Shown here piece after piece: positions 15,934-38,754 of a stretch of DNA of 39,246 bases; the stretch's first letter is position 1; each line of letters starts with the position of its first letter. The position numbers and the translations under genes are program-made. This DNA comes from a virus, in IMG/VR virus record IMGVR_UViG_3300018080_000325, positions 1 to 39,246 of that record, one strand, 5' to 3'. The notes below the pieces were generated by a model. That model ran no database searches. It worked only from the letters and a program-made list of their open reading frames with translations, and was not told where the DNA came from.

Positions 15934-16968
15934 CTAAGACAAAACGTCGGAAAAAAGATAACCGGCCATTGCAGCTACAATCTTTTGAACTTCAATGACA
16001 GATACTTCAATCATCCAACTACGCCGAGACGGAACCCAGTATTTAGCAACGATCAAGGCTTGACTTTGAATATTCATGCCTAAAGTCATTCCTCTTAATG
16101 GCACTTGCGGATCGACATATGCAAACAACGCATAATCGCCCCAAATATCCGAAATCGATGCAGTTTGACCCTTGTTAGCGGTATTGTACACCGCTCCACC
16201 TACATGCAATTCATCAACCTGCATAATTTGAGCGACTGCCCGTTTTGATAACAGACCTGGGTTTTCCGGTTTTCCACCGGGCGAAATATAGGATAATAAA
16301 TTTGGGTGATTTTCCATGTAATCCCAAACGGTTTCACCAACGACTAACACATTTGGCCGCTTGTTAGCGTATTGCCGGACTGAATTTTTTGCCTTTTTCA
16401 TATTGGTTCGTGGAACGGAATTTACAGGATCATCCCACTGGGTGCCCGCCGAAAGCGCAGCGGTGTAACCTGAAAAAGTTGTTGTATTGAACAATGCGGT
16501 TGCCGCCCGGCGTTCGCGATTTGCTAAGATTAATTCGGTGAGAATATTTGTTGCATCGCGCTCGGGTTTTAGCGGATCATCGGCATTGTCAATAGAACGC
16601 TGGGGAACCAACATTCCCAACGCATATTCAATACAGGTATAGGAATCCGACGTTAAATCGGCAGTTACTATTGCAGTCTCGGCAGTGTCACCGCGTTCAA
16701 TATTTTCAGGTATAGAAAGAATATCTTTCTGATAAAATTTGTACCAAGAATCACTTTCCTTTTTAACTTTAAAATTCTTTAAGATTTTGTCTGCAATGAA
16801 CATTGAACTCTGTTCATATGCCAACGCAAAATTCGATAAAATCGCGTTTGTATGCACATCACGCACATCAAACAGCGAAATTTGCCCATCGGTAAGATTG
16901 ATAATCTCATTTCCCCCAACGCTTTGCTTTGGGCTATTAGAAACGACATCGCCAGATAATTCAATCAT
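15934..16968 (-). CDS. Major capsid protein
   Basis: 344 residues. Order protease/scaffold, small decoration protein, then this gene is the Mu-type head module and places the major capsid protein here. Sequence signs: an N-terminal arm, MLVPQRSIDNADDPLKPERD and LTELILANRERRAATALFNT in the helix region, RPNVLVVGETVWDYMENHPN and VAKYWVPSRRSWMIEVS near the end, all typical of HK97-fold capsids of this group. The start at 16968 has AAAGGAATTAGAATC upstream. Length fits (about 300-350). The fold is inferred, not seen directly. Confidence 0.85.
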   Translation of the reverse strand: MIELSGDVVSNSPKQSVGGNEIINLTDGQISLFDVRDVHTNAILSNFALAYEQSSMFIADKILKNFKVKKESDSWYKFYQKDILSIPENIERGDTAETAIVTADLTSDSYTCIEYALGMLVPQRSIDNADDPLKPERDATNILTELILANRERRAATALFNTTTFSGYTAALSAGTQWDDPVNSVPRTNMKKAKNSVRQYANKRPNVLVVGETVWDYMENHPNLLSYISPGGKPENPGLLSKRAVAQIMQVDELHVGGAVYNTANKGQTASISDIWGDYALFAYVDPQVPLRGMTLGMNIQSQALIVAKYWVPSRRSWMIEVSVIEVQKIVAAMAGYLFSDVLS

Positions 16969-17022
16969 GATTCTAATTCCTTTTGTAGTTATAATTTACA
17001 GCGATTTCAAATTAAATAATTA

Positions 17023-17421
17023 CTACGCTTGACTTGCGCCAGCAAACCCACTGCAAAGCCGGACTGCAATTAAATCATTTTGAGCCGTTGCAGCTTCCAG
17101 TGTTTCACAAAAAAAATATTCGTTGTCTGCATCTACAATCTCACCCTTACCGCCGGCAGCATTGGCAGGGGTAAGATGTTTGTGAACCGCACAAGCTTCA
17201 TTTACTTTGTGTAGACTGGTTCCATCTACGCGCACGATAGCCTCTTCGCCGCTTTCGGGAGTATTTTGCAAAATACCAGCTACGCGACCGTTATTTGTAG
17301 TTTGTACATTTACTTTACCGGCGGCAGAAACATAAACCGCGCAATACTGGTAACTTGACAAATCGGCGGCAGCGACAAAAGTAACATCCCGCCCGCCAAA
17401 ATTAGCACTTCCTACAGACAT
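17023..17421 (-). CDS. Head decoration / DUF2190-like capsid protein
   Basis: 132 residues, small and Ala/Gly/Val rich. It begins MSVGSANFGGRDVTFVAAAD and contains AVYVSAAGKVNVQTTNNGRV and AGILQNTPESGEEAIVRVDG, the signature of DUF2190-type proteins that decorate or stabilise the capsid. It lies between the protease/scaffold and the capsid genes. It ends in a short Ala-rich tail. Confidence 0.8.
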   Translation of the reverse strand: MSVGSANFGGRDVTFVAAADLSSYQYCAVYVSAAGKVNVQTTNNGRVAGILQNTPESGEEAIVRVDGTSLHKVNEACAVHKHLTPANAAGGKGEIVDADNEYFFCETLEAATAQNDLIAVRLCSGFAGASQA

Positions 17422-17480
17422 TTCAGTACCTCGTTTTTATGTGAATAATTTATTTTATTTCAAGTAATTAAATCGGCTTA

Positions 17481-18794
17481 CTATACGTTTTTTCGCTTAT
17501 CGTTTTTATAAGCTTCGACTAATTCCGGATTCTGTTGGCGAACAATTTCAAAAGCCCGTTCGTATGTCAGATTTGTTTTATCTTGCATGAGTTCAACGGT
17601 CTTTTCATTCAAAACCACGTCCGGCGTCTTTTTCTGATTTTCCGGTCCTGGTTGATTTGAACCAATTTCACCGCCATGAATAGCGACCGGCAAACCAGCG
17701 ATTAATTCCTTTGTTTGTTCCGGATTTACAAGATAAGATTTTAGCCAGGTTTCACGTTGCGCTGGTAAGATTTTCCCGCTATTGGTGTTTTTGTCGTAAA
17801 TCTGGGAATCGATGAAGTTTTCAGCATCGGTTAATTTGATACTTTCCTCAAGCTTGTTTACCCGGTCTGCCAGCTTCACCGCTTCCTTTTGCGAATCAGA
17901 TAACTGAGTTTCATAACCGGTCACTTTGTCGGATAATTCTTTCTTTTCGGTTTCCAAGGTCTTAACCTGATCGGTTAAGGTTTTTACGGAATCCATAAGA
18001 TTTTTTACTTCCTGAACACCGTCCGAACCATCGGTCAGCTTCAGCAACTTTTTAAGTTCTTCATTCATTTGGAGTTCTCCATTTTCGGTTAATTGTTCTA
18101 ATTTATTTTTGAGAATCTCAAGAAATTCTTTGTATGTTTTTTCAATTTCTTTTGTAAGCGTTTCTCCGGTTTCAACCCTACCGGCTCGGATTTGAGCTAT
18201 TAGATAGCTTGAGAATGCCCATGCAACGCCTTCAAATGCCCATGCCATTTCTTCGCGCTGATATTCTGTTTTGATGTATTTTTCAAGATCATTCAATTTG
18301 AAATCAGTAAGCGTTACCGGCATCTGATTTTTTTTCAAAAAATTTACATTTGTCAAAGCAAATCCAAGCATTGTAAACCCGCAATCATTCCCGTTTTCAT
18401 CGACAAAATTAAAATCAAATTCGGGAGAAATGAACTGAAATTCCTTAGCCTCGATATATTCCCGTGCTTTTGCAGTCCATTCGATTTCACCCCAAAGCTC
18501 ACCATTTTCAACCATTAATCGCTTTATCCAACCACACGCTTTCGCATTTTCTGGATCTTCCGAATATGAAGCATGTTGATAGTTTCCGGGCAACATAGGT
18601 GAGCCTAAATTATTTAGCCGTGTTCCGTTTTTAGCGTTAAAATTGTCAACCGCTTGCTGCAAATGCTTCTCTTCAACCTTGAATTCACCATACAAGCTGT
18701 GTTCAAAATCACCGGGATAAAGTAACTTGATTTTTGCAAGCTTAGAATCGCTTTTCTTTGCTGATTTTAGCTGTAGCAATATCGAATATTTCAT
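17481..18794 (-). CDS. Mu gpI-like prohead protease with scaffold domain
   Basis: About 437 residues from the ATG at 18794 (MKYSILLQLKSAKKSDSKLA), preferred because AAGGG lies eight bases upstream and earlier starts fall inside a terminator hairpin. The N-terminal half matches the Mu I/protease family: GDFEHSLYGEFKVEEKHLQQ, LPGNYQHASYSEDPENAKAC, GWIKRLMVENGELWGEIEWT, AREYIEAKEFQFISPEFDFN. Residues about 250-340 form a long coiled coil (VKTLTDQVKTLETEKKELSD) acting as scaffold. It would mature the head shell and be lost from the virion. An internal ATG could make the scaffold alone, as in Mu. Confidence 0.85.
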   Translation of the reverse strand: MKYSILLQLKSAKKSDSKLAKIKLLYPGDFEHSLYGEFKVEEKHLQQAVDNFNAKNGTRLNNLGSPMLPGNYQHASYSEDPENAKACGWIKRLMVENGELWGEIEWTAKAREYIEAKEFQFISPEFDFNFVDENGNDCGFTMLGFALTNVNFLKKNQMPVTLTDFKLNDLEKYIKTEYQREEMAWAFEGVAWAFSSYLIAQIRAGRVETGETLTKEIEKTYKEFLEILKNKLEQLTENGELQMNEELKKLLKLTDGSDGVQEVKNLMDSVKTLTDQVKTLETEKKELSDKVTGYETQLSDSQKEAVKLADRVNKLEESIKLTDAENFIDSQIYDKNTNSGKILPAQRETWLKSYLVNPEQTKELIAGLPVAIHGGEIGSNQPGPENQKKTPDVVLNEKTVELMQDKTNLTYERAFEIVRQQNPELVEAYKNDKRKNV

Positions 18795-18810
18795 TTCATT
18801 AGCCCTTATA

Positions 18811-18858
18811 ATAAAAAAGGCCATGCTTCCGAGGGAGGGAAATCTCGAAAACATGGCC
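18811..18858 (-). terminator. Intrinsic terminator in front of the protease gene
   Basis: On the minus strand GGCCATG (from 18858) pairs with CATGGCC, with an inner CGAG/CTCG pair, followed by TTTTTTATTAT. It stops, or conditionally stops, transcription just 17 bases before the protease ATG, so head genes probably need their own promoter or antitermination. Confidence 0.75.
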
Positions 18859-18887
18859 GTCTTGCAGCTCTATCTTTTATATTTTAT

Positions 18888-18930
18888 TTTTCGCTACGCC
18901 TGTAAATCAGGTCTTTTTTTATAGCGAAAA
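18888..18930. other. Nested hairpin in the 18.86-18.96 kb gap
   Basis: TTTTCGCTA at 18888 is matched by TAGCGAAAA ending at 18930, with an inner CCTG/CAGG stem. It lies just upstream of the protease leader terminator and could be part of the same leader RNA or an operator. No gene is visible in this gap. Confidence 0.55.
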
Positions 18931-18964
18931 TTAGTTATTTTTACCCTTTAATGATTTAATGCAA

Positions 18965-19198
18965 CTATTGTTCCAAATGCGTTAAATACTTCACTTCTTG
19001 ACCGTCTATTGTAGACTTAAATGTAATGAATTTTGGAAGATATGTCTTATTTTGACAATGCGAACAACTTACAAGTCCTTGCTCAAAAATTACATGAACT
19101 TTGTTATTGTATTTCACTTCGTAATGCCCGCTATCAAGTTGCATACATAAAGTAGAAAAACAACATGAACATTCAATTTTCTTTTTTTCCGTTTTCAT
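18965..19198 (-). CDS. Small zinc-ribbon-like protein
   Basis: 77 residues. CSCC near residue 10 and CSHC near residue 45 give two CxxC pairs about 35 apart, as in phage zinc ribbons (MKTEKKKIECSCCFSTLCMQ, GLVSCSHCQNKTYLP). It overlaps the preceding membrane-protein gene by 26 bases. It is the last gene before the protease terminator. Function unknown. Confidence 0.6.
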   Translation of the reverse strand: MKTEKKKIECSCCFSTLCMQLDSGHYEVKYNNKVHVIFEQGLVSCSHCQNKTYLPKFITFKSTIDGQEVKYLTHLEQ

Positions 19199-19490
19199 TA
19201 ACTACCTTTTTCAAATCCTTTTGAAGTCCACCGGAACGTCGGTAATACTCATCTTGCAATTCATCTATTAAATTAATTTTGTCCGCAAGCTTTCCAAGAA
19301 AAAGCAAGCCCAATCCATACGCCATGACCACAAAAAAATAAGCCCATGTTGGAATGGAAAACAGCTTAACAAGTATCAATACCAAGACCAGGGAACGCAA
19401 GTTATTAATTAGCCTACTCCCCTGCTCAAAATAGTACAGTCCGCCCGCTATCTTTTTTACACAACGACTTTTCAATAAATTTAAGCTCAC
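19173..19490 (-). CDS. Small two-helix membrane protein
   Basis: About 105 residues. No ATG gives a sensible start; a GTG at 19490 is the best in frame after the overlap with the glycosyltransferase gene. Two adjacent hydrophobic segments (SLVLVLILVKLFSIPTWAYF and VVMAYGLGLLFLG) form a hairpin, followed by a charged helical tail (KINLIDELQDEYYRRSGGLQ). Size and topology would fit a class II holin, but no endolysin neighbour is present and this call is speculative. Confidence 0.5.
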   Translation of the reverse strand: MSLNLLKSRCVKKIAGGLYYFEQGSRLINNLRSLVLVLILVKLFSIPTWAYFFVVMAYGLGLLFLGKLADKINLIDELQDEYYRRSGGLQKDLKKVVNENGKKEN

Positions 19491-19785
19491 TATAAATGCC
19501 CTCGATTGTTGGCTCGATATAATATCCATTCGAATAACTCCAAACTACCGGAATGCCAAGTGCTTGAGCCTCTTGTACCATGATCGGCATACCGTCGTGT
19601 CGCGTTGGTCTTAAATATACATCAATGCCGGAATACAATTTGTCTTTTGTCGTATTACCTGTACATGAAATAAATTCCCAGTCCGGCTCAAGTTTCATCA
19701 GTCCGCGTACAATGTCACGACCGTAAAGCCAATTATAATCGATTCTCGAATCGGTCACGACCGGACAATAAATTAATATCCGCAT
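19426..19785 (-). CDS. Glycosyltransferase, GT-B C-terminal half
   Basis: 119 residues. YLRPTRHDGMPIMVQEAQAL followed by GIPVVWS is the nucleotide-sugar binding signature of GT4-type glycosyltransferases (group 1), with the expected R/H-D-G and E residues. The N-terminal Rossmann half is in the preceding gene, in another frame, overlapping by 53 bases. The two could be subunits, a programmed frameshift, or a gene broken by an indel; a duplicated ATGCGGATA at the overlap hints at a small duplication. The sugar and target are unknown. Confidence 0.7.
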   Translation of the reverse strand: MRILIYCPVVTDSRIDYNWLYGRDIVRGLMKLEPDWEFISCTGNTTKDKLYSGIDVYLRPTRHDGMPIMVQEAQALGIPVVWSYSNGYYIEPTIEGIYSELKFIEKSLCKKDSGRTVLF

Positions 19786-20095
19786 AGTAATTTATCCGCA
19801 TTGCTTTTATTCCTGCTTGACTAAGCTCCCGTACCAGCCATGGAGCCACTGCCAGATTATCGCAAAACAATGAATTGAATTTCGCTCGAATTCGATAATC
19901 AAAAAACTTTGTCACTTTCAAAACATCGGTTCCAATCCAGATACGCGCACACTTGTAGCCTAAAAACCGAAAGAATATCATAACTGGATCAATTGCACCC
20001 ATAGACACGGAAACATAATCATATTGCACGCCGTCAATATGCAAGCTCCTGGGATACATGTAAGAATTATAATTATTTCGTGCGCGTACAATCAT
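19733..20095 (-). CDS. Glycosyltransferase, N-terminal half
   Basis: About 120 residues from the ATG at 20095, which forms a TAATG overlap with the methyltransferase stop. It reads IDGVQYDYVSVSMGAIDPVM, IWIGTDVLKVTKFFDYRIRA and NLAVAPWLVRELSQAGIKAM, the acceptor-side domain of a GT-B glycosyltransferase. It ends after GRDRFENRL while the C-terminal half starts within it in another frame. Together they match the length of a small phage glycosyltransferase. Confidence 0.6.
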   Translation of the reverse strand: MIVRARNNYNSYMYPRSLHIDGVQYDYVSVSMGAIDPVMIFFRFLGYKCARIWIGTDVLKVTKFFDYRIRAKFNSLFCDNLAVAPWLVRELSQAGIKAMRINYYADINLLSGRDRFENRL

Positions 20096-20096
20096 A

Positions 20097-20648
20097 TTAT
20101 TCCTTTTCAAGCTCGTAGACTACGTCAAACTCCCGAAATAGCCGATACAGCGGTCTGAATCCGGTAAAATAAAAATACCAGGGACGCCAGACCTTGAAAT
20201 ACTTTTTATCCGTGACTTTCAGACCGGACCGCTTAAACAATTGCCTGAATCGATAATTATCTATCTCATGAAAATGCTGATCAGTCCAGAGAAGTTTTCC
20301 ACGCGCTGGGGCAAAGATATAGATTTTACCATTATTTTCCAAAGTCATTTTGAATTTTTCAAGTACATATAGCGGATTAAAAACATGCTCAATAACATGA
20401 GATAATATAACTACATCATACTTTTGCACCGGAACGCCGAAACAATCATCAAGATCGCCGCTTGTATTTAAATATTTTTTAGGATTAAACGCCTTTTCTA
20501 TAGCCTCCCCCAAAAACGAACTATCACCAACATCAAGCACCTTGTCAGACTGCTTGATTTTTCCATTTAGGTAATCAAGTGTCTTATCAATTCTGATTCG
20601 CATCTGAAAATCTATTTCAGTTGCTATCTTTGTGAATTCTTTAATCAT
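20097..20648 (-). CDS. Class I SAM-dependent methyltransferase
   Basis: 183 residues. Motif I is DKVLDVGDSSFLGEAIEK, motif II/III region YLNTSGDLDDCFG, motif IV VVILSHVIEHVFNPLYVLEK, then TLENNGKIYIFAPA: a Methyltransf_11/23 fold typical of small-molecule or sugar methylases, not DNA methylases. It overlaps the upstream membrane-protein stop and is directly followed by the glycosyltransferase pair, so the three may work on one glycan or surface molecule. It is an accessory cassette between portal and protease, absent from Mu. Confidence 0.8.
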   Translation of the reverse strand: MIKEFTKIATEIDFQMRIRIDKTLDYLNGKIKQSDKVLDVGDSSFLGEAIEKAFNPKKYLNTSGDLDDCFGVPVQKYDVVILSHVIEHVFNPLYVLEKFKMTLENNGKIYIFAPARGKLLWTDQHFHEIDNYRFRQLFKRSGLKVTDKKYFKVWRPWYFYFTGFRPLYRLFREFDVVYELEKE

Positions 20649-20832
20649 TTATTTTTGTGCCCTCGAGTATTGTTTTACTAAACGACAAAACAGATGCAAA
20701 TGACAAAAAAGACATTCGCAAATCCTTTTCACCGTTCAACAGCGTGAAAACAAAAATATTCAACAATATCGTTACAGTCGCTAACACGACCGTGACAATA
20801 AGCCAAAAAAGTGTTTTATTCTTTAGTAACAT
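20641..20832 (-). CDS. Small membrane protein
   Basis: 63 residues. One strong membrane segment (LFWLIVTVVLATVTILLNIF then VFTLLNG) and a second weaker amphipathic stretch (MSFLSFASVLSF). Its start lies within the end of the portal gene and its stop overlaps the next start by eight bases. It could be a holin-like or anchor protein for the glycan cassette. No family recognised. Confidence 0.55.
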   Translation of the reverse strand: MLLKNKTLFWLIVTVVLATVTILLNIFVFTLLNGEKDLRMSFLSFASVLSFSKTILEGTKIND

Positions 20833-23038
20833 ACAGATTTATTCCTCTGCATTTCGCTCCACCCTCGCATTGCGTGTATGGCCCGGATGAAATCGAATTC
20901 CAAAGCGAATCATCCGGATAGACTTCTTTCAAGTCTATCGGCTTACACGCCTTGCAAATTCGATTATCAAGTATTTCAGAACGCAAAATGTATTCAATCT
21001 GTTCGGCGTGCTGCATAGCCTCATATTCCCGACCGGCCCCGTAAACAGTAACAATGTACTCACTTGCTGCATTGCTAAAATCACCGTCCGACAGACCGGT
21101 TAAAAGCAGTTCCAGGCCCGGTAAATCGATTTCGCTTGAAATCTTTTGCCTGGTCAACTCCTTTGTGAATTCTTTCAAAAGCTTACCTGTTAGCGTACTT
21201 GCCAAAATGGAAACCAGGGGATTCACTACTTTTTCGCCTTCAATCTCAATAGTTGCTTCATCCGTGATGCCGTCATCAGGTTCACCTTGCAGCTTCACCC
21301 CTGTTTTCCTTAGTTCTCCCACAACACGCTTACCGGAGTTATGGAAGGCCCCAACACCCATTTTTTTCAGTTCTGCTTTGAGCTTCTTATCATCTATCTT
21401 AAGCTTTTTCAATTGCTTTTCAAATTCCTTAAGCTCCAAGCCTACTAATTCAGGAGCTTTTCTCATCAATTGCCGAATAAAAATCATTTTGTATTTCAGG
21501 CCAATAGCATCCGTTTCAATCTTGCCATCTTCGATTTCATCCCGGATTTCCTCTAAGTTCGCAAGCGAACTTTCACGGTCTGTTAATTCGCGCCGGAACT
21601 GAAACGGCCCGGCATCAGCAAAATGAACATGACCACACCCGCAATCAGTGGCTTTTTTCTTATCCGGTTCATTATCTTCTTTCCCAGGTTCCTTGATTTC
21701 TTTAGCTGGCCGCTTGTCATCTTTTTTCGTTACAACTTTTTCCGGAATTGCCTTCGATTCCTGGGTGATAATCGTTTGTTCCGCCGGCAAGTCCATTTCC
21801 CTTAAAAGCATTTCCCTGATCTCTTCGGTCGGATCGATGAATCGCTTATTCGCTAATTTATCAAGTGTATTTGACAGCTTTTCGTAATCAACAGACCGAA
21901 TTTTCGAATAATTCAATTTCGGGTATTCGGTCACATTTGGAAAATTCCAGGATACAAAATCTTTGATTACCGCCCGGCCCTCCACTCTTTCGTTAAAAAA
22001 GTCTTCAACCCGTCGCGCGTAACTTTCCTCAGCAAGCAAAAAGAAATCAGTCTTATCCTTAGACATTGCATAAGAACCAGTTCCCTCCATCCCGGCCATA
22101 ATGTGCATAGCAAGAAAACGATACACCATTTCTTTGTTGTGATGTACAATATTCCCTCTTATGTCCGGCATCCCGCCAGTATCGCCGAAAGCATCAACAG
22201 AAAATCCGGACGGCGCAACAATATATTGCTTTTGATGCGACATATAAGTCTCACCAACCGTTTTAGCTTTTTCTAAATCACCAGATTGTTCCGCCTCTGG
22301 CAAATGAATCACCGGGACCTTGATTCCCCAAATTTGAGATGCCATTGTAAGGATTTTGGAAAGAAGTTCTTTTGAATACCAGTTGAAGTACAATGGTCTC
22401 AAAATGCTTTCGCCTTGATAGTTAGACCCACGCTGATTTAGGGTGAGAATAGAAAGCTTATCATTTGGAAGGTTAAAAAACTCGTATGTAGACCCTTTCA
22501 TGGCGTGCTGTTCAATATAGTCAAGCGTGCCATCCGGCGTAAGATACCACCTTTCAAGCGTATCTTGCAGCCTGGGAGAAAGCTTGAAATGCCACCGGGA
22601 ATCCTCTTTGCTGAAAAACGAAATCTTTTCAAATACAGCGCAACCATACTCGAAAAACTCTAGAATATGATCTTGTAAATAGCTCCAGGTGAAAGTCGGA
22701 TTATTAAACAACTCCTTTTCAACAGCATCGGCAATCTTTTTGTCGATGCGCCGGGCGGATGCAGGTTCAATCGAGACCGTGCTTTGCGAGATCGGAAGCT
22801 TAACAGCAAGCAAAAGACCGGCAATAACAGCATCATTGACCATTTTAGGGATTTTGTCATACTTGTTATTATTCCAGTCTGAATTGTAATCTGTCTGAAA
22901 ATAACCAGACCAGTTTTCAGTACCAGGGACACCCAGGCCCCGGATAAATCTTTGCGTACTGCTATAAGCCGCTTTTAATTGTCTGAGTTCACCCTCTAAA
23001 CTTGCCACTCGATTTCGATTTCTATTCCAAAAAGCCAT
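20816..23038 (-). CDS. Portal protein fused to gpF/gp30-like head morphogenesis protein
   Basis: 740 residues. Residues 1-420 are a DUF935/Mu gp29-like portal (NDAVIAGLLLAVKLPISQST, YGCAVFEKISFF, RPLYFNWYSKELLSKILTMA, VAPSGFSVDAFGDTGG). Residues about 425-475 form a Lys/Glu-rich linker with CGCGHVHF. Residues about 485-740 are the Mu gp30/SPP1 gp7-like domain (AASEYIVTVYGAGREYEAMQ, EILDNRICKACKPIDLKEVY, CEGGAKCRGINLYV). In Mu these are separate genes. It starts two bases after the terminase and forms the DNA gate of the capsid. Confidence 0.9.
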   Translation of the reverse strand: MAFWNRNRNRVASLEGELRQLKAAYSSTQRFIRGLGVPGTENWSGYFQTDYNSDWNNNKYDKIPKMVNDAVIAGLLLAVKLPISQSTVSIEPASARRIDKKIADAVEKELFNNPTFTWSYLQDHILEFFEYGCAVFEKISFFSKEDSRWHFKLSPRLQDTLERWYLTPDGTLDYIEQHAMKGSTYEFFNLPNDKLSILTLNQRGSNYQGESILRPLYFNWYSKELLSKILTMASQIWGIKVPVIHLPEAEQSGDLEKAKTVGETYMSHQKQYIVAPSGFSVDAFGDTGGMPDIRGNIVHHNKEMVYRFLAMHIMAGMEGTGSYAMSKDKTDFFLLAEESYARRVEDFFNERVEGRAVIKDFVSWNFPNVTEYPKLNYSKIRSVDYEKLSNTLDKLANKRFIDPTEEIREMLLREMDLPAEQTIITQESKAIPEKVVTKKDDKRPAKEIKEPGKEDNEPDKKKATDCGCGHVHFADAGPFQFRRELTDRESSLANLEEIRDEIEDGKIETDAIGLKYKMIFIRQLMRKAPELVGLELKEFEKQLKKLKIDDKKLKAELKKMGVGAFHNSGKRVVGELRKTGVKLQGEPDDGITDEATIEIEGEKVVNPLVSILASTLTGKLLKEFTKELTRQKISSEIDLPGLELLLTGLSDGDFSNAASEYIVTVYGAGREYEAMQHAEQIEYILRSEILDNRICKACKPIDLKEVYPDDSLWNSISSGPYTQCEGGAKCRGINLYVTKE

Positions 23039-23039
23039 T

Positions 23040-24440
23040 TTAAAATTCCGTATTCATGTATGATGCACCGGCAAGCGCATCAGCTATATTTCGCTTGCCT
23101 GATAATTGTTTTTCGAATTCGCTTGCAGATGTTGCGCGCACACTTAAATAATGCTTTGTCAATCCACGTTCCAGCGCTTCCACCGCGTGCGCCGGAGCCG
23201 TTTTTTCATTACTCCACTTTAAGCCCCGCAATTCCTTGATTAATTCCCGGCAAGATTCGTGAATTTTGATTTTATCCTGCTCAAAAAGCCTTTGCAGTAT
23301 TGGTCGCCTGGTGTCAATATGCACCGGAAAAGGCGACAATGAAATCCCGTGTTCCTTGAATATAATAGCCGGAGTCAAGTTATTGCTGGTCCCTTCCCGC
23401 TGGAATGCCCTGGGACACCCGACACGATACAAGGATTCTATGCTAAATTTTGTTTCAAGCTCCTGAACGTATTGCGCCGTGCTTTCAATAGCCGCATCGT
23501 AGTGATAATACTCATCTGTAATATAATACAAGCCGTTCATATACACTATGTTTAGCCAAACCATCGGCGAAGTGTCAGAAATGCCGTAATCATTCAATTC
23601 AAATCTGGTTACCGGAAACTCCAACATGCAAGATACAAATGGCAAGCTTGAAACAATTGCACCATCCGCAAGCTTGTAAATTAATCCGGTCTTGCCGAAC
23701 CAATTTGCAAACACGTATTTTAAAACCCATTCATGAGGAAGTGTTTTGACCAGGGTTTCATAATACTTTTCGTCAGGAATATTCGCCGCGTTCGCCATCG
23801 GTTTAGCTGTTATTCCAAGATAAGAATCATCTAAGCCTTTCCAATACCCGTAATAAGCGGGCCATTGCTTGTTTTGGAAAAAAATCTTTTCCCGCTTTGT
23901 CTTAATATCTTGACAATAAAACAATTCCTTAAGATAGTGATCTCCCCCTTCCGGGTTGCAAGTTATTATCTTTTGCCGAAAAGGAACATCGTGACGCACA
24001 CGCGAACAGGCAAGGTTAAAAACATTTTGTTCGACTTCCTCGCATTGATCAATCCACAAAGCACCGAATTTCGGCCCCTTAAGCTTCTTTAGCTGGCGTT
24101 CGTTGTCAAGCGCGATAAACCAGACTTCCGAGCTATTGGGTAATATTAAATGTTTCTCAGTCTTATTCCAGTAATATCCAGATGCCGGAGCGAACCGGTC
24201 ACGAAACATAACCTCGAAATACTCGGGAATCGTTGTCATTTTTAATTCATCGGTCGTGTTTCGAATGACTACGCCGATGTTACCAGGGAACCGCTCCATC
24301 AGTTCATGAAATTTTATAATCGCTACAGTCGTTTTTCCTGAACCAAACTCACCGGCAAGACAAACATTTTCAACATTTGATTCAAAAAAATGCGATGTAT
24401 AATCATTTAGTTTCCATGTTTTTTCATTTTCGGAATCTAT
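23040..24440 (-). CDS. terL: Terminase large subunit, apparent ATA start
   Basis: 466 residues if it starts at ATA 24440-24438. Walker A AGEFGSGKTTVAIIKF lies at about residues 29-44. Walker B-like FGALWIDQCEEVEQ is present, and a Terminase_6-type nuclease region follows (FANWFGKTGLIYKLADGAIV, DYGISDTSPMVWLNI, ELETKFSIESLY). The first ATG (24299) would lose Walker A. In frame the block is TGA-GAC-ATA, with no ATG, GTG or TTG before Walker A. GGAGG lies seven bases before the ATA, and ATAG overlaps the small-subunit stop. It packages DNA through the portal. Confidence 0.85.
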   Translation of the reverse strand: MDSENEKTWKLNDYTSHFFESNVENVCLAGEFGSGKTTVAIIKFHELMERFPGNIGVVIRNTTDELKMTTIPEYFEVMFRDRFAPASGYYWNKTEKHLILPNSSEVWFIALDNERQLKKLKGPKFGALWIDQCEEVEQNVFNLACSRVRHDVPFRQKIITCNPEGGDHYLKELFYCQDIKTKREKIFFQNKQWPAYYGYWKGLDDSYLGITAKPMANAANIPDEKYYETLVKTLPHEWVLKYVFANWFGKTGLIYKLADGAIVSSLPFVSCMLEFPVTRFELNDYGISDTSPMVWLNIVYMNGLYYITDEYYHYDAAIESTAQYVQELETKFSIESLYRVGCPRAFQREGTSNNLTPAIIFKEHGISLSPFPVHIDTRRPILQRLFEQDKIKIHESCRELIKELRGLKWSNEKTAPAHAVEALERGLTKHYLSVRATSASEFEKQLSGKRNIADALAGASYMNTEF

Positions 24441-24841
24441 GTCTCACCCTCCCCCATCCCGAATTCTTTCCCGGTTCCGACTATGTTCATGATAACAGGA
24501 TTTTCAGCGGTGCCAATATGTTTATAATCACCTTCCAATTCTGATATATCCTTAAGTACCTGAAGCGCAAGGTTGAAATTTTCATCTTTAATTGCCCTCC
24601 TATACAGTCGCCGCCGGGCAACAAATTTCCAGGCAAGTTTTCCTTTAATTTCAACGTCATAAACTTTCTGAATATTTTTGTTGGCAAGTGTTATATAATT
24701 ACGAGCTTGTCTCGATGTTATATTCCAATTTTCGGTAATATATTGAAGTATCTCATAATTACTTACACCATCTATAATTAAACCCTGGACATAAAAAAGT
24801 CGCTTTTGTTTTTCGCTTTTTGTGCATTTAGTTTTTTGCAT
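24437..24841 (-). CDS. terS: Terminase small subunit
   Basis: 134 residues. An N-terminal HTH (FYVQGLIIDGVSNYEILQYI, then ITENWNITSRQARNYITLAN) is followed by a helical region (ARRRLYRRAIKDENFNLALQ, VLKDISELEGDY) that matches phage small terminases of the Bacteroidetes/gut type. It recognises the packaging site and overlaps the large subunit by four bases. Its last codons (GGGGAGGGT) supply the ribosome site of the large subunit. Confidence 0.85.
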   Translation of the reverse strand: MQKTKCTKSEKQKRLFYVQGLIIDGVSNYEILQYITENWNITSRQARNYITLANKNIQKVYDVEIKGKLAWKFVARRRLYRRAIKDENFNLALQVLKDISELEGDYKHIGTAENPVIMNIVGTGKEFGMGEGET

Positions 24842-24862
24842 AATATTTATATTTTAAATTTA

Positions 24863-24936
24863 AGCGCCTGGGTGAGAATTGAACTCCCCTCTCCATTCTG
24901 GAAAAAATGGCACATCGCGATCTATGCTTCAGGCGC
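24863..24936 (-). tRNA. Degenerate tRNA, possibly tRNA-Gly(TCC), 8-base anticodon loop
   Basis: The ends GCGCCTG and CAGGCGC pair perfectly over seven bases. A D stem GCAT/ATGT, an anticodon stem CCATT/AATGG and a T loop TTCAATT are in order; total length is 74 without CCA. Oddities: the anticodon loop TTTTCCAG is eight bases, the D loop lacks GG, and the T stem has one mismatch and an extra base. If the base after the anticodon is A, the anticodon is TCC. It overlaps the end of the Mom gene by 15 bases. It could be a decayed or a frameshift-suppressor-like tRNA. Confidence 0.5.
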
Positions 24937-25578
24937 AGTTAAACTTTTGGGATAAGGTTTTTTTAATAATTCAATTTGTTTTCTCATTTTTTTTGTAAGC
25001 GGATACAAATATTTATACTTGGGCGCCCAGGGAGACGGTATAAATCCTAAATGCTTTGCACCCTCTACATTATTTTTCAAATCTTTTCTTTTACGTAAAT
25101 GACCTCCAACAGTCCGCCAATTGTATATTTTACCACATTTTTCATATTTTCTTACCCGTTTATCTTTTCCTTGTGGGCCAACATATATCCAATTACCAGC
25201 TTGATAAATTATTCCAAGATGCTTTTCGTATGGATCGGCAAAACTAATTAATAACTTTAATCCAGGAGACTGCTTCTTTAATAATTTTATAGAAATAGCG
25301 ACAATTTTAGTTGCTGGATTTTCATGCTTGCCCAAAGCAACCCTTACAAGTTCCCCGGTATCTGTCATTTTCAAACCATATCTTTTCCCGGCACTTGTTG
25401 AGCATCCATACGAATAAATGATAACTCCGATAAACTTATTGTTTTCCCAGACTCCAATTTTTACTAATTTCCCCGCGGGCATTGCTTTTGAATAACGCCA
25501 TTTCATAACCGCGTATTTTGCAGCTTCATAAGAACACCAATCAAGTTTTAATTTACTTCGGTTTGAATTCATAGCCAC
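24922..25578 (-). CDS. mom: Mom-family DNA adenine modification protein
   Basis: 218 residues. The string CSYEAAKYAVMKWRYSKAMP then AGKLVKIGVWENNKFIGVII, TGELVRVALGKHENPATKIV, LLISFADPYEKHLGIIYQAG and NWIYVG are the hallmarks of the Mom family (GNAT-like fold) that converts adenine to the carbamoylmethyl form in phage Mu. In Mu this protects the phage from many restriction enzymes. The start is GTG 25578 or ATG 25572, overlapping the ParB-like gene. Placement just before the terminase genes suits late modification of packaged DNA. The phage also encodes a Dam methylase, the partner of mom control in Mu. Confidence 0.85.
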   Translation of the reverse strand: MAMNSNRSKLKLDWCSYEAAKYAVMKWRYSKAMPAGKLVKIGVWENNKFIGVIIYSYGCSTSAGKRYGLKMTDTGELVRVALGKHENPATKIVAISIKLLKKQSPGLKLLISFADPYEKHLGIIYQAGNWIYVGPQGKDKRVRKYEKCGKIYNWRTVGGHLRKRKDLKNNVEGAKHLGFIPSPWAPKYKYLYPLTKKMRKQIELLKKPYPKSLTAPEA

Positions 25579-32030: not shown

Positions 32031-32312
32031 ATGGGAAAAAATGTAAGTAATTTTGAACATCTAATAGAGGGTTGGCAATACAGATTGTTAAGCATCGCCG
32101 AGTCCCTGGGACTGAACCGAACAGATATGGCCAGGATGGTAAATCGAGATAAGGCAGCAATAAGCGCGTGGTTCAACAAAGATAGAGCATCCAATATCAA
32201 TATTGGAGTCCTTGCCAAGCTATGTCAAGATATGAAAGTATCGGCTGACTACATTTTGTTCGGAAACCAGGGAGGGAAAAGGGGGATTAACTTGGAATGC
32301 TATCGACTTTGA
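32031..32312 (+). CDS. Cro/CI-like HTH repressor
   Basis: 93 residues. An HTH_3 domain is clear: [40 protein letters not shown], then [20 protein letters not shown] and FG. It is the only regulator on plus in this region, so it is the likely lysogeny repressor, though it lacks a CI-type protease or dimer domain. Its last codons overlap the integrase remnant in another frame, and the C-terminal tail INLECYRL is probably created by that junction. Start chosen by AAAGGAG upstream. Confidence 0.75.
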
Positions 32313-32676
32313 TCGGGATTGCTTGACTTTGTGTGGAAAAACTAAAGAGGAACGGATTGTTTATCTTCACCCAACTTTGAAAAAATTACTTGAATGGTTC
32401 CGGCCTGAGAATGTCAAGCTCAACAATCTTGTTATTGATAAAATAGGCGATTATCTAACTAAACGCTTCTTAGAGGCTTTCAAATCGCTTGAAATAAATA
32501 AAAAGGGTGGAGTGCATTTACTCAGGCATTCAATAGCGACTTATTTGCTTGAAATCGGAAACGATATTCGGATCGTGCAGGCGATCCTCGGTCACAAGGA
32601 CATTAAGACCACGCAAATCTATACCCACATAGTTTTAAACCACCAAAAGCAGGCATTTGATAAAGTCAAATTCTAA
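32281..32676 (+). pseudogene. Tyrosine recombinase (integrase) C-terminal remnant
   Basis: Read in the frame [71 protein letters not shown]. The HxxR, GH and final Tyr of tyrosine recombinases are present. The N-terminal domains and the first catalytic Arg (normally just before 'GLTW') are missing. The remnant joins the end of the repressor at an A4G5 tract, in a +1 frame, with no start codon. It is very unlikely to work alone. It may be what is left after a deletion that brought the CRISPR region next to the switch. Confidence 0.8.
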
Positions 32677-32699: not shown

Positions 32700-33121
32700 T
32701 AACTAAAAAATTCAATTTTTTTCCATTTCCCCCTTGACAAATAAGAAAAATATTGATATACTGTATTAACTTATTTTCGTCGAAAATGATACGCTCATTG
32801 AAAATTGCGAAAAATCGTTATTGAGTTAAGTTTAATATTTCCTACGAACTAACTAAAAATGCGCTAAGTGTTTTCGATTTTTTAAAAATTCGATTTTCCC
32901 ACATTTTAATTATCTGATTATAAATTAGTTACGAAGAAAAACGCTGTAACCAGGTTAGCGCAAAAGTTGAACTTCGAGAATTATATTGAACTTAGCTCAA
33001 AAAACGGTAAAAAGTTAAGTCGATTTTGGAGCGATTTTTGTGCTAAAAATTTAGCAGAAAAAGGGGGTTAGCTAAATGCTATTGCTAAGTTACTGTTTTT
33101 TAAAGGCGAAAAAAGGGGTAG
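32700..33121 (+). promoter_or_regulatory. CRISPR leader
   Basis: No gene. TTGACA at 32734-32739, 17 bases, TATACT at 32757-32762 form a strong promoter reading into the array. The remaining 350 bases are AT rich and repeat GCTAA/TTAGC words (GCGCTAA near 32860, GTTAGCGC near 32952, TGCTAAAAATTTAGCA near 33041) and TTTTCGA words. The leader is longer than a typical 100-200 base leader. Confidence 0.65.
32734..32762 (+). promoter_or_regulatory. CRISPR array promoter
   Basis: TTGACA, a 17-base spacer, then TATACT. Start of the precursor RNA is expected near 32769, about 350 bases before repeat 1. Confidence 0.6.
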
Positions 33122-33824
33122 GTCAGAATTTCCCTAACACCAGCGGAGGGATTGAGACTTGCCCCATTTTTCGTGCGGATACAATCCTCTAGCTTGGTCA
33201 GAATTTCCCTAACACCAGCGGAGGGATTGAGACGGAGGGAGTGGGCGTATTCCGCCCGTTGCTTTTGGAGGTCAGAATTTCCCTAACACCAGCGGAGGGA
33301 TTGAGACCGTATTAAAACGGATAACAAGAGAAGGGGGGTCGTCCAGTCAGAATTTCCCTAACACCAGCGGAGGGATTGAGACTCCGTGATCATATATTCC
33401 ATCGCATCCGACACAGATAGGTCAGAATTTCCCTAACACCAGCGGAGGGATTGAGACCTTTGGTAATTTATTTAGAAATAAGTATTGATTAGCAGTCAGA
33501 ATTTCCCTAACACCAGCGGAGGGATTGAGACGTATGTAAAAGACTTATAAAGAATGTGTTTGGTCCAATGGTCAGAATTTCCCTAACACCAGCGGAGGGA
33601 TTGAGACCTTGCAATCAGTAATTTGCGCTGATTTAATATTGGGCGTCAGAATTTCCCTAACACCAGCGGAGGGATTGAGACTAAAACAGCCTCCTTTTCC
33701 TACTTTAATGTTTACTACGTCAGAATTTCCCTAACACCAGCGGAGGGATTGAGACCCATATGTACACCTCGCAGGGCGACATGGCATTAATTGTCAGAAT
33801 TTCCCTAACACCAGCGGAGGGATT
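33122..33824 (+). CRISPR. CRISPR array 1: 37-bp repeat, 10 repeats, 9 spacers
   Basis: Repeats of 37 bp begin GTCAGAATTTCCCTAACACC and end GGAGGGATTGAGAC; a TCCCT/AGGGA stem lies inside. Repeat starts: 33122, 33197, 33271, 33346, 33421, 33495, 33571, 33645, 33719 and a last one at 33793 that loses its GAGAC end (decayed terminal repeat). Spacers are 37-39 bp and all different. The end decay and the ATTGAGAC-type 3' handle give a plus orientation with the leader on the left. The repeat type looks like class 1 (type I or III). No cas gene is present. Confidence 0.97.
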
Positions 33825-34046
33825 TCTAAGTCATTGCCTCGCTTGATAGAGGATTGCGACATCGTCGTCCGAGATAGTTTTTTTGATGATTTTACCGTGT
33901 CAGAATTTAAGCCTCGCTTGATAGAGGATCAAAATCCAGTAAAAAAGTCGTCGATCCCCTGGGAATTTTACACGACCGGAGATCGACGACGATTTTCTCA
34001 TTTTCAAGGTATTTAAACCCTTGTTTTTTATTACCTGATTTGGTGG
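33825..34046. other. Inter-array region with direct repeat, repeat relic and hairpin
   Basis: No convincing gene. GCCTCGCTTGATAGAGGAT occurs at 33836-33854 and 33911-33929, exactly 75 bp apart, one repeat-spacer unit. GTCAGAATTT, the first ten bases of the array-1 repeat, recurs at 33899. A perfect 10-bp inverted repeat GTCGTCGATC/GATCGACGAC spans 33947-33990. It serves as the short leader of array 2 or is a decayed array piece. Confidence 0.7.
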
Positions 34047-34333
34047 GTATTAATCGGACTATTATAGGATTGAAACCCGTGATTTTGTACTGATTTTCTG
34101 ATTTAGCCATGTATTAATCGGACTATTATAGGATTGAAACTGGTAGTCCTTTCCCATGCGCACAAAAAGCTGTTACTGTATTAATCGGACTATTATAGGA
34201 TTGAAACGCATATCACTGTTTTTCGTATCATCAGCCCACCGGGTATTAATCGGACTATTATAGGATTGAAACGTGAATCAGGTTCGAGCGTGGCCTTTTT
34301 TGTTTGAAGTATTAATCGGACTATTTTAGGATA
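34047..34333 (+). CRISPR. CRISPR array 2: 30-bp repeat, 5 repeats, 4 spacers
   Basis: Repeat begins GTATTAATCGGACTATTATA and ends GGATTGAAAC, a handle common in type I-B and III systems. Starts: 34047, 34111, 34178, 34243 and a decayed one at 34309 (one mismatch, lost end). Spacers are 34-37 bp. Spacer 1, read on the other strand, begins ATGGCTAAATCAGAAAATCA, like the start of a gene. The repeat is unrelated to array 1. No adjacent cas gene. Confidence 0.97.
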
Positions 34334-34363
34334 AAGGGATGCCTTCTCAAGTATCCCTTTTTT
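34333..34363 (+). terminator. Intrinsic terminator ending the CRISPR transcript
   Basis: AAAGGGAT/ATCCCTTT stem around a 12-base loop, followed by a T-run, starting at the decayed last repeat. It would end a transcript covering one or both arrays. Confidence 0.8.
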
Positions 34364-34412: not shown

Positions 34413-34527
34413 TTGACTTTTAATTCAAAATTTGATATAATTAAACATAGCTTATTACAAGCCTCCTGATGTGTTGGATTAGAGACCGGACGTTTCCCGG
34501 CAAGAATGGCGTCCGGTTTTATTTTTT
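34413..34527 (+). ncRNA. Predicted ~80-nt RNA with strong promoter and terminator
   Basis: TTGACT (34413-34418), 17 bases, TATAAT (34436-34441) is close to consensus. ACCGGACG/CGTCCGGT followed by TTTTATTTTTT ends the unit near 34527. No open frame with a ribosome site lies in the 80 bases between. Either a small RNA or a promoter kept silent by an early terminator. Confidence 0.6.
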
Positions 34528-34563
34528 GTTTTAGGAGTTAAATAACAGTTTTAAATAATACAT

Positions 34564-34635
34564 TGCGGGTTGGTTCAGTAGTAGAACGCTGGTCTCATAA
34601 GCCAGAGATCATCGGTGCAAATCCGATACCCGCAT
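34564..34635 (+). tRNA. tRNA-Met(CAT) or tRNA-Ile2(CAT)
   Basis: Full cloverleaf: acceptor TGCGGGT/ACCCGCA, D stem GTTC/GAAC, anticodon stem CTGGT/GCCAG with loop CTCATAA (anticodon CAT), variable AGATC, T stem ATCGG/CCGAT with loop TGCAAAT. CCA is not encoded. The T loop and the short D loop without GG are atypical, as seen in other phage tRNAs. Whether it is elongator Met or Ile2 cannot be settled from sequence. Confidence 0.85.
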
Positions 34636-34733
34636 CTAAGAGTAGGGGAGGCCAAGCCCCTTAAATGAAATCCAAGTTTTTTTAAAATCAATCAGACCTT
34701 TCTTTTTTTTCATATATTACTTGGAATTCATTT

Positions 34734-34777
34734 AGCCCGTGCGAGTTACTTGGCCGTTACTTTCACGGGCTTTTTTA
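34734..34777 (+). terminator. Intrinsic terminator before the 89-residue gene
   Basis: AGCCCGTG/CACGGGCT stem, then TTTTTTATTT. A TATATT box lies at 34713-34718 but without a good -35. It stands 40 bases before the next start, again a terminator in front of a gene. Confidence 0.7.
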
Positions 34778-35684: not shown

Positions 35685-35701
35685 AGTGATTAACATTTCA
35701 C

Positions 35702-35740
35702 TTGACATTTACAGGAAAATTTGCTATCTTGTAAATGTCA
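35702..35740 (+). promoter_or_regulatory. Promoter buried in a 10-bp palindrome
   Basis: TTGACA (35702-35707), 17 bases, TATCTT (35725-35730). The -35 lies in TGACATTTAC, which is repeated inverted as GTAAATGTCA at 35731-35740, so a dimeric repressor could cover the promoter. Strong operator candidate. Confidence 0.65.
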
Positions 35741-36188: not shown

Positions 36189-37049
36189 ATGAAGTATTCA
36201 ATTTTAATTAATCAACTTGCCTGGTTACATTATTACCCAGAAGCACGGGCACAGCACGCTATCATTTTTGATTCAATAAAAAGTATCTGTAATTCGGCAA
36301 GTTCAAAAATAATAAGAACATCTGACGGCTATACTTATATTTCATCAAAATTGATTCTCGATGAAAATCCTATTTTACATTTAACATCAAAGGGAAGTGT
36401 AACGAAAATTATTCAGGAGCTTAAAGACTGGAAATTAATTGATTATCAAACTATTGAACAAAAAAATTATTATAGGCTTACTGAGGAGTCTGAAAAGCTT
36501 GACCGTTCAAAAAATGACGACCTGTTCAAAATATTGAACAGTACCGTTCAAAATATTGAACAGGAACCGTTCAATAAAATGAACCGATCATATAATAAAG
36601 ATCAATCAAATTATAATAATCCTATAAATAATATTTCGCCTTCCGGCTCAAATCAAAAATCAAAAGCAGAAATTAATGCTGAATGGTTTGAAACTGTTTT
36701 TTGGCCTGCATACCCAGCACGAAAAGGAATAAAGCAAGGTAAGAAAAAAGCAAAACAATGGGTTATTAAAAATTTAAATGGTGATGCAAATTTTATAATG
36801 ACCGGAGTTAATAATTATTCTAAAAGTGAAGTTGTTTTAAAAGGTTTTGCAATGGATGCATATCGCTTTTTGCTTAACGCTGAATTTGAAGCATGGCAAA
36901 AACCGGAAACAGTTAATCAATCGAAAGGAAACAACCAACATGCAGGAAACGCAAACAACGGACGCGGCGGATTTAACTACTATGACTCAGATCACTCAAT
37001 TTCTCCCGAAGAGCTTGCAAAGCTTAAGGCAAAAACTATCAAGCTCTGA
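36189..37049 (+). CDS. Replication initiation protein (lambda O-like)
   Basis: 286 residues. The N-terminal 110 residues form a winged helix (FDSIKSICNSASSKIIRTSD, GYTYISSKLILDENPILHLT, GSVTKIIQELKDWKLIDYQT). The middle is Asn/Ser-rich. The C-terminal part has WFETVFWPAYPARKGIKQGK, KKAKQWVIKNLNG, a motif common to phage replication initiators. It precedes a DnaC-like loader in an overlapping frame. The origin may lie inside the Asn-rich middle, as in lambda O. GAAGGGAATCAA gives the ribosome site. Confidence 0.8.
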   Translation: MKYSILINQLAWLHYYPEARAQHAIIFDSIKSICNSASSKIIRTSDGYTYISSKLILDENPILHLTSKGSVTKIIQELKDWKLIDYQTIEQKNYYRLTEESEKLDRSKNDDLFKILNSTVQNIEQEPFNKMNRSYNKDQSNYNNPINNISPSGSNQKSKAEINAEWFETVFWPAYPARKGIKQGKKKAKQWVIKNLNGDANFIMTGVNNYSKSEVVLKGFAMDAYRFLLNAEFEAWQKPETVNQSKGNNQHAGNANNGRGGFNYYDSDHSISPEELAKLKAKTIKL

Positions 37050-37791
37050 TTGCAAAGAACATTCACGAAAATGCTTTTCGTGCGGATGCCAGGAGCTTGA
37101 TTTTGTTAACGAGAACCTGGTTGTCATAAATGACCTGAGTTTTATTTATCCTGATACGACCCGGCTTTATTGCAAAAAATGTATTTCAAATGCACAAAAT
37201 CAAAATAAGCTTAATTATTTAGAAGTACTTGCAAAACAACCGAGCCGCGTAATGAGTCGTTTAAACATTCCTGAACGCTATTTGTTTTCTACTTTTGAAA
37301 ACTATCAAGGCAAAATAGGAATTAAAGCAGGATTAACAGACAAGATCGCCGGCAAAACACAAAAGAATTTTTTCCTGATTCACGGACGAAACGGAACCGG
37401 AAAAACGCATCTGGCCGTAGCATCAATTTTATTCATTTTGCAACAAACGAAAGTTTACTATAGCCGGGTGAAATTTATCCGGCTTAAACACCTGATTGAA
37501 AAAATCAAGTCTGCAAAGGACAACGCAAACCGGACATTTTCGAAACAAGATTTTGAGAAAGTGAAAATTTTGATTGTTGATGATCTATTATCAACAAGCT
37601 TTGACTCATGGGCGCTTGACATTTTTGCTGACATTCTGGATACGCGATACGGCAACACTTCCACGCTATCAGTTTTTACAACTGATGTATCAATACAAAA
37701 TCTTTACGAAGTGTTCGGAAAACGAATTGCAACCCGGCTAACGTCCGGTTTTATTTACGAAACAACTGGGGAAAACAGGAGGTTACGCTAA
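36940..37791 (+). CDS. DnaC-like helicase loader ATPase
   Basis: 283 residues from the ATG at 36940 (AAAGGAAA upstream); it overlaps the initiator by 110 bases. An N-terminal zinc knuckle (CFSCGCQEL, LYCKKC) is followed by Walker A HGRNGTGKTHLAVASILFIL, Walker B FEKVKILIVDDLLS and a sensor region VFTTDVS. These are typical of DnaC/IstB-type AAA+ loaders. It would place host DnaB at the phage origin. Confidence 0.85.
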   Translation: MQETQTTDAADLTTMTQITQFLPKSLQSLRQKLSSSDCKEHSRKCFSCGCQELDFVNENLVVINDLSFIYPDTTRLYCKKCISNAQNQNKLNYLEVLAKQPSRVMSRLNIPERYLFSTFENYQGKIGIKAGLTDKIAGKTQKNFFLIHGRNGTGKTHLAVASILFILQQTKVYYSRVKFIRLKHLIEKIKSAKDNANRTFSKQDFEKVKILIVDDLLSTSFDSWALDIFADILDTRYGNTSTLSVFTTDVSIQNLYEVFGKRIATRLTSGFIYETTGENRRLR

Positions 37792-37895
37792 TGAACGACT
37801 ACGATCCAGTGCCAGACAGCGACGGCTTAATCGTAGCTATACTGTTTTTGGCATTATTAATAATTTTAATGATTTTAGGTAGAATATTTTTATAA
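37791..37895 (+). CDS. 34-residue membrane protein
   Basis: Starts in a TAATG overlap after GGAGGTTACGC. MNDYDPVPDSDGLIVAILFL, ALLIILMILGRIFL is a short acidic N-terminus followed by one membrane helix. It is translated with the helicase loader. Too short for family assignment. Confidence 0.6.
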   Translation: MNDYDPVPDSDGLIVAILFLALLIILMILGRIFL

Positions 37896-37903
37896 GATGA
37901 ACT

Positions 37904-38224
37904 ATGAAAAAATCAAAAAAAGCTAAAACAAGACAATTAGATATTTTTAAAAATCCTGATTTTCAGAAAAAACAAATCGAACCCGTTATGGGTGAAATTT
38001 GGCGCGTAGTCAAGGAAATACAGAGATTTCAAGATAATTATCAATATGCAGGAAACGATTTTGCTTGGTGGAGGTCCCGTTTTCAAAATTACCAGGGACT
38101 TGCATCAACAACAATTCCCAAAAATAAGTGGCTGAAAATAGAAATGAATGAAGATTTATTTCGGTTAATTTGGAATCTATATGAAAATGAAATATGTAGA
38201 ATGCCATACGACAGGAGGTACTAA
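37904..38224 (+). CDS. Hypothetical protein with N-terminal basic arm
   Basis: 106 residues, MKKSKKAKTRQLDIFKNPDF, QYAGNDFAWWRSRFQNYQGL. The N-terminus ends in QLDIF, which resembles a beta-clamp (DnaN) binding motif (QLxLF type). The rest is Trp/Phe rich. It ends in a one-base overlap with the Dam methylase start. It lies among replication genes, so a clamp-binding partner is a plausible idea. Confidence 0.55.
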   Translation: MKKSKKAKTRQLDIFKNPDFQKKQIEPVMGEIWRVVKEIQRFQDNYQYAGNDFAWWRSRFQNYQGLASTTIPKNKWLKIEMNEDLFRLIWNLYENEICRMPYDRRY

Positions 38225-38754
38225 TGACCAACCATCAATTAATTAACCAGACTTCCGGAAAAACAGAATACTACACGCCTCCCGAAATAGTGGAGGCAGC
38301 GCGCGCGTTAATGGGAAGCATCGACTTGGATCCGGCAAGCAGCAAGCGCGCGAACAAAACGATCAAGGCAAATCAATTTTTTACCGAGCAAGAAAATGGT
38401 CTTGATCATCCCTGGTTCGGTAACGTCTGGATGAATCATCCGTTTTTACGCGAAACCAACAAGCTTTGGATTGAAAACATAATACGCGAATATGAAGTCA
38501 GGCATGTTGTTCAAGCATGCTGTATTACATTTGCAAGTACTTCCGAAAAGTGGTTTCAACCATTGCTTAATTTTCCTCAATGCTATTTATCACCCCGGAC
38601 AAATTACTATTTGCCGGACAGTACGAAAAAAAAGGGAGTGACTAAGGGGAGTGTTGTAACCTTTTTACCACCCAGAAATCAGAATTACTTTGAAACAATA
38701 GGAAAATTTAGAAAGCATTTTTGTAAGCACGGGAAAATAATGCTCCCATACTGA
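38224..38754 (+). CDS. dam: Phage DNA N6-adenine methyltransferase (Dam family)
   Basis: 176 residues. EYYTPPEIVEAARALMGSID, LDPASSKRANKTIKANQFFT, WFGNVWMNHPFLRETNKLWI match the phage N6-adenine methylase family (PF05869). The catalytic NPPY/F box is NHPF here, a variant. CITFASTSEKWFQPLLNFPQ, CYLSPRTNYYLPDS follow. It probably methylates GATC-like sites. Its presence with mom recalls Mu, where Dam methylation controls mom. AGGAGGTACTA gives a strong ribosome site. Confidence 0.85.
   Translation: MTNHQLINQTSGKTEYYTPPEIVEAARALMGSIDLDPASSKRANKTIKANQFFTEQENGLDHPWFGNVWMNHPFLRETNKLWIENIIREYEVRHVVQACCITFASTSEKWFQPLLNFPQCYLSPRTNYYLPDSTKKKGVTKGSVVTFLPPRNQNYFETIGKFRKHFCKHGKIMLPY

Follow-up and report, generated by a model that had tools for sequence, protein, structure and literature searches.

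Genomic setting of the arrays

The window, by which we mean the whole stretch of DNA analysed, is a virus record of 39,246 bases with 67 open reading frames (ORFs). Its CRISPR arrays sit between what are, by sequence similarity, a lysogeny region and replication genes, so that phage genes lie on both sides. The flanking features are as follows.

15934..25578, minus strand: phage head module with a Mom-like gene (Pfam Portal_Mu, Mu-like_Pro, Terminase_3 and Mom; PHROGs)
32031..32312, plus strand: small helix-turn-helix (HTH) repressor gene (Pfam HTH_3, E 1.7e-4, just under the Pfam curated cut-off; PHROG 4 transcriptional repressor, E 6e-7)
32323..32676, plus strand: C-terminal remnant of a tyrosine recombinase, Xer/IntI-like, 117 aa (Phage_integrase, E 1.3e-14)
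36189..38754, plus strand: phage replication side, with a PHROG 11527 protein (E 2.7e-4), a DnaC-like helicase loader (PHROG 50, E 6.5e-31) and a Dam methylase (E 5.5e-10)

The preliminary description had placed the arrays inside a phage genome, between a lysogeny switch and a replication operon, and the flanking genes bear this out: the repressor and Mu-like head genes lie to one side, the DnaC-like loader and Dam to the other. At the level of sequence, carriage of the arrays by the phage is established. GC skew changes sign at around 32 kb, at the divergent switch, and from there remains positive across the arrays and as far as the replication genes. The repressor gene stands on the lysogeny-switch side, where the promoter scan gave a promoter-like TTGACA-N17-TATATT at 31918-31946.

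The integrase beside the arrays survives only as a C-terminal remnant. It covers no more than positions 110-168 of the Phage_integrase profile, the half bearing the first catalytic arginine being missing, and its best solved relatives are IntI4, an XerC-like protein and XerD. In a three-frame translation of 32260-32676 the sequence upstream of the remnant runs on, in another frame, into the last part of the repressor gene, and the two genes look as though they were joined by a deletion. Since this apparent fusion has reduced the recombinase to its C-terminal half, the ability to integrate may have been lost.

As reported before, the 39 kb contain no recognisable cas gene: PADLOC and Pfam searches of the 67 ORFs, in a contig that may be incomplete, gave nothing above noise, the matches to Csx18, Csx19 and CARF having E values of 0.002-0.01. 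The effector and adaptation genes that a complete CRISPR-Cas system of the ICP1 type would bring are likewise absent from the 67 ORFs.

The first and last 123 bases of the window (1-123 and 39124-39246) are identical and in opposite orientation, forming an exact inverted terminal repeat. The left copy lies within a methylase-like gene and the right copy sets in midway through that gene, without its start. A word size of 123 is the largest in a common metagenome assembly setting; because the repeat has precisely this length, the contig probably stops at a break in the assembly graph and not at genuine viral termini, and part of the genome may be missing.

Several observations elsewhere in the window deserve record. 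Inserted in the head module between the protease and portal genes, 18965-20832 holds glycosyltransferase fragments, which occupy two overlapping ORFs read in different frames, together with a methyltransferase. This insert may be a cargo cassette for surface modification that has suffered a frameshift. Two large tail-fibre-like proteins at 10671-15181 have a signal-peptide-like stretch at or near the start, which is unusual for phage tail proteins. A Mom-like modification protein, a ParB/methylase-like protein and Dam are encoded at 24922-26107 and 38224-38754, genes that probably serve to modify the phage's own DNA. Finally, 35685-36188 is a 500-bp stretch without a clear gene, with a 22-bp inverted repeat (35695-35748) just ahead of the replication genes; it is a possible origin or regulatory site.

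Two intact arrays and the relic of a third

The repeats are arranged as follows.

33122-33824, plus strand: array A, nine letter-perfect 37-nt repeats GTCAGAATTTCCCTAACACCAGCGGAGGGATTGAGAC (starts 33122, 33197, 33271, 33346, 33421, 33495, 33571, 33645 and 33719) and a decayed tenth at 33793 that has lost its last five bases, leaving a broken 3' end
33824-33935, plus strand: relic array C, two decayed 37-nt repeats (33824-33860 and 33899-33935) around one 38-nt spacer (33861-33898)
34047-34338, plus strand: array B, four perfect 30-nt repeats GTATTAATCGGACTATTATAGGATTGAAAC (starts 34047, 34111, 34178 and 34243) plus a fifth (34309) whose 3' end has decayed

These coordinates agree with the earlier count of ten 37-bp and five 30-bp repeats, the last of each array decayed. 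The nine spacers of array A (37-39 nt) and the four of array B (34-37 nt) are each unique. Nine exact 37-mers cannot be a product of chance. Both arrays read on the plus strand; their decayed repeats stand on the right-hand side, as is normal for a leader-distal end, and the direction is fixed by the 3' decay of the terminal repeats of A, C and B alike. We thus confirm the earlier observation of real cas-less CRISPR arrays, in the same orientation, within a phage genome.

Array C was absent from the preliminary description. It came to light through a 19-nt exact duplicate, GCCTCGCTTGATAGAGGAT, the only 19-mer duplicated in the window outside arrays A and B, whose copies lie 75 bp apart, which is the repeat-plus-spacer step of array A. 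The first unit is decayed in its 5' part and the second at its 3' end, so the exact sequence of the composite repeat, GTCAGAATTTAAGCCTCGCTTGATAGAGGATTGCGAC, is a reconstruction from two copies. The composite shares its first 10 bases and nine of its last 10 with repeat A while differing in the middle; the overall identity of 22/37 was reached by none of 20000 shuffles. No spacer separates the first unit of C from the shortened tenth repeat of array A; the two are fused. This relic suggests that arrays have repeatedly been gained and lost at this location.

The repeats of A and B had been called unrelated, which holds for most of their length but not for the 3' ends (GGATTGAGAC and GGATTGAAAC), where nine of the final ten bases are identical (GGATTGARAC). 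The corresponding 3' handles, ATTGAGAC and ATTGAAAC, are nearly identical. Ends of this sort are typical for Cas6-processed class 1 repeats, and the 3' sequences support the class 1 resemblance noted previously. The further idea that two Cas types are involved is possible but, given the agreement at nine of ten terminal bases, not required: judged from these ends, a single class 1 system would suffice for A and B, as would their being a pair of sister arrays from the same host.

Predicted expression signals

The following signals were predicted around the arrays.

32734..32762, plus strand: promoter-like TTGACA-N17-TATACT, 11/12 consensus with an extended -10 (TG)
32763..33121, plus strand: leader of array A, AT-rich (31% GC), defined by composition
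33941..33997, plus strand: hairpin with a T-rich tail in the interval between A/C and B (inverted repeat 33941-33959/33978-33996)
34333..34363, plus strand: predicted intrinsic terminator after array B, with a 10-pair stem and a T run (z -3.9)
34413..34530, plus strand: putative separate small transcription unit, TTGACT-N17-TATAAT followed by a terminator-like hairpin
34564..34636, plus strand: tRNA-Met(CAT) (ARAGORN; Rfam tRNA, E 2.7e-13)

The promoter and terminator signals proposed in the preliminary description are recovered as consensus and folding predictions: a promoter-like site stands before A, and hairpins follow A/C and B. The former lies in AT-rich DNA 359 bp ahead of array A, and a promoter-bearing leader is a candidate for array A alone, on the strength of the consensus match and the AT-rich composition. 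As the scan of this AT-rich region returned 21 promoter-like sites where shuffled sequence would give 10, we gave weight only to the three matches at 11/12. The hairpin at 33941-33997 (fold -22.2 kcal/mol, z -3.1) is likely, from its predicted structure, to be a leaky terminator. The same scan found no separate promoter for array B, which may therefore rely on read-through past this leaky hairpin.

Downstream, the unit at 34413-34530 separates the arrays from the replication operon. Its hairpin falls about 45 nt past the strong promoter-like site (within about 80 nt), and it may represent a small RNA or an attenuated leader in the interval between array B and the tRNA gene. A solitary repeat-like candidate at about 34459-34487 was rejected, since its score of 9 stays below the 12 reached by chance across the genome; the likeness of the small unit to relic repeat C is also within chance. 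The tRNA-Met lacks an encoded CCA and has an odd T loop, TGCAAAT; another terminator-like hairpin lies downstream of it at 34734-34771. With promoter-like sites, arrays, hairpins and tRNA following one another, the whole of 32.7-34.8 kb reads as a chain of small non-coding units.

Searches for related repeats, targets and host

Neither the 21-nt core of repeat A nor the 18-nt core of repeat B gave a credible exact match in 84,980 species genomes (GTDB); three single matches to the cores lay inside unrelated sequence and were set down to chance. Exact searches of IMG/VR with repeats A and B, and with the family pattern common to A and C, returned nothing, and the array region matched neither GenBank phages nor plasmids. 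Even with 3 mismatches allowed, repeat B was absent from 125 Cloacimonadota and 388 Verrucomicrobiota genomes (513 in all), two phyla picked via chance matches and not as believed hosts. All these database searches may leave out records very near the window's own genome.

The spacers fared similarly. The preliminary description had suggested comparing them with viral and plasmid databases: no credible protospacer was found for any of the 13 in GenBank phages, nor for six of them, searched as exact 22-26 nt words, in IMG/VR, and plasmids, covered by the search with the whole array region, gave no match. Two candidates were discarded. Spacer B2 matched a gut phage record at 26/28 positions, a figure that drops to 27/37 over the full spacer and was treated as chance, and a degenerate IMG/VR pattern combining spacers A3 and A8 gave five matches fitting neither spacer. 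Against the phage's own genome, no match of the 13 spacers was better than those of shuffled controls, as would be expected if the phage avoids targeting itself.

The phage itself is isolated. Relatives of its portal, capsid and terminase are found at some 20-32% identity, those of the major capsid protein and portal being present in GenBank phages; the portal has no close relative, and the helicase loader has one 27% match. Cloacimonadota was considered as a host phylum and rejected, its capsid relatives, at only 27-32% identity, being no better than those in GenBank phages and repeat B being absent from the 125 genomes.

Comparison with known virus-borne arrays

One close parallel is Nostoc cyanophage N-1, which carries five 37-bp repeats without cas genes, transcribed during infection (PMC4916379). 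Shared with the present case are a cas-less phage array, 37-bp repeats, an AT-rich leader and spacers without database matches; a further point in common is the form GTC.GAATT...GGGATTGARAC, found among cyanobacterial relatives of these 37-bp repeats (PMC4916379). N-1 differs in that its single array, with 4 spacers, clearly matches repeats known from the host group, where we find two arrays, 13 spacers and a relic (PMC4916379). The Saccharolobus portogloboviruses SPV1 and SPV2 also carry leader-preceded, cas-less arrays at more than one genome site, and these mini-arrays are believed to turn the Cas proteins of the host on related viruses (PMC6858448). They hold 1-2 spacers, with a host-like repeat and leader and known reciprocal targets, whereas the present arrays are longer and of two repeat types (PMC6858448).

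Chiyouvirus of Bathyarchaeia likewise has two arrays per virus, the host's repeat being reported in array 1 only (PMC10848311). It is an archaeal virus with three spacers per array, two of its spacers being self-targeting, and it encodes a Cas2 homologue of its own (PMC10848311); the present contig, by contrast, has neither a Cas2-like gene nor a spacer self-match. Among huge phages, arrays without cas genes are thought to use host Cas (PMC7162821). They resemble ours in being compact (median six repeats), some with host-like repeats, but belong to genomes of more than 200 kb, compared with a 39-kb contig with Mu-like head genes here (PMC7162821). In phages below 200 kb, CRISPR systems are described as rare, and mini-arrays as holding one or two spacers (PMC11656645). 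The earlier statement that phage-borne arrays are known in a few cases accordingly has its precedents, and a virus with two mini-arrays, one of them host-matched, has been published as well (PMC4916379, PMC6858448, PMC7162821, PMC10848311).

At least two direct repeats, unique spacers of near-constant length, a virus genome and no cas genes are all found here. Two further defining traits, a repeat like that of the host and spacers matching other viruses or mobile elements, gave no match in the collections searched. The present locus is a virus-borne cas-less array of this known kind, distinguished by its 13 spacers, two repeat types and relic third array.

Possible function of the locus

Because the arrays are present without the enzymes that use them, the phage probably borrows the CRISPR machinery of its host. 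With modest confidence, we lean towards a locus that provides CRISPR guides to Cas proteins made by the host. In its favour are the perfect repeats, the differing spacers, the promoter-like site, the two hairpin terminators, the phage flanks, the lack of a cas gene, the direction fixed by the decayed 3' ends, the absence of self-matching spacers and the like anatomy of the N-1, SPV1/SPV2 and huge-phage arrays; against it stand the repeat and protospacer searches, which gave no match in the collections searched. Use of the arrays is what we infer, along the following lines. The arrays would be transcribed, and a host Cas6-family enzyme would cut the transcript eight bases ahead of each spacer, generating the handles described above. 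Host class 1 complexes (type I or III) would then take up the guides, and the infected or lysogenic cell would become resistant to elements matching the spacers, the likeliest being plasmids or other phages. The arrays may have grown as a host acquired spacers in the ordinary way, whether before the capture or after it, as suggested by the differing spacers and the decayed leader-distal end of each array. A bolder version, in which arrays of two different host CRISPR systems (and earlier of a third) were gathered in a dedicated locus that arms whichever Cas system the host carries against rivals, is doubtful.

Other explanations must be weighed against the supply of guides. The arrays and the recombinase remnant might be passive cargo, host DNA acquired by illegitimate recombination, not yet lost and of no advantage to the phage. 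What is left of the neighbouring integrase was, after all, apparently joined to the repressor gene by a deletion, a third array at the site is already ruined, and our searches gave neither a target nor a host repeat. Yet neglect in a compact genome would bring decay, and the 13 full repeats show no mismatch, both arrays are still followed by a terminator and A has a strong promoter-like site. The perfect repeats argue against long neglect, although a very recent capture would look identical, and we regard passive carriage as unlikely while taking it seriously. An assembly chimera, with host arrays wrongly joined to a phage contig, is very improbable: the exact 123-bp inverted repeat that cuts the methylase gene does show that the contig ends are not clean, but there are phage genes to the left and to the right of the arrays, the repeats (30 and 37 nt) are far below the 123-bp overlap implied by the end repeat, and the GC skew that flips at the 32-kb switch runs on continuously across the arrays.

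Two further proposals accept an active locus. The repeat RNAs could act as an anti-CRISPR decoy that titrates or misassembles host Cas proteins in the manner of Racrs, which are known from phages (PMC10651486), and such a role would fit the numerous copies of the repeat that lie downstream of a promoter-like site of the phage, beside the lysogeny region. Racrs share with the present locus a phage-borne CRISPR repeat, but they are solitary units without a spacer series (PMC10651486). Arrays A and B are not of that form, being full arrays with 13 different spacers of normal length, and the sole solitary repeat-like candidate is the one rejected above as falling below chance level; we consider a decoy improbable. 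The spacers might instead be aimed at genes or defence islands of the host, silencing these and not competing viruses; ICP1 is known to do so, and the same has been suggested of huge phages (PMC11656645, PMC7162821). This would accommodate the failure to find a viral protospacer, but a host target was likewise not found in the collections searched, and we rate this proposal as more improbable still than a decoy.

On the favoured reading, that of guides for host Cas proteins, the locus gains interest from its contents. Two intact multi-spacer arrays with different repeats, beside the wreck of a third, suggest a site of repeated gain and loss of guide arrays. The locus offers a testable case of a virus that may arm the immune system of its host against rivals, in a phage of ordinary size.
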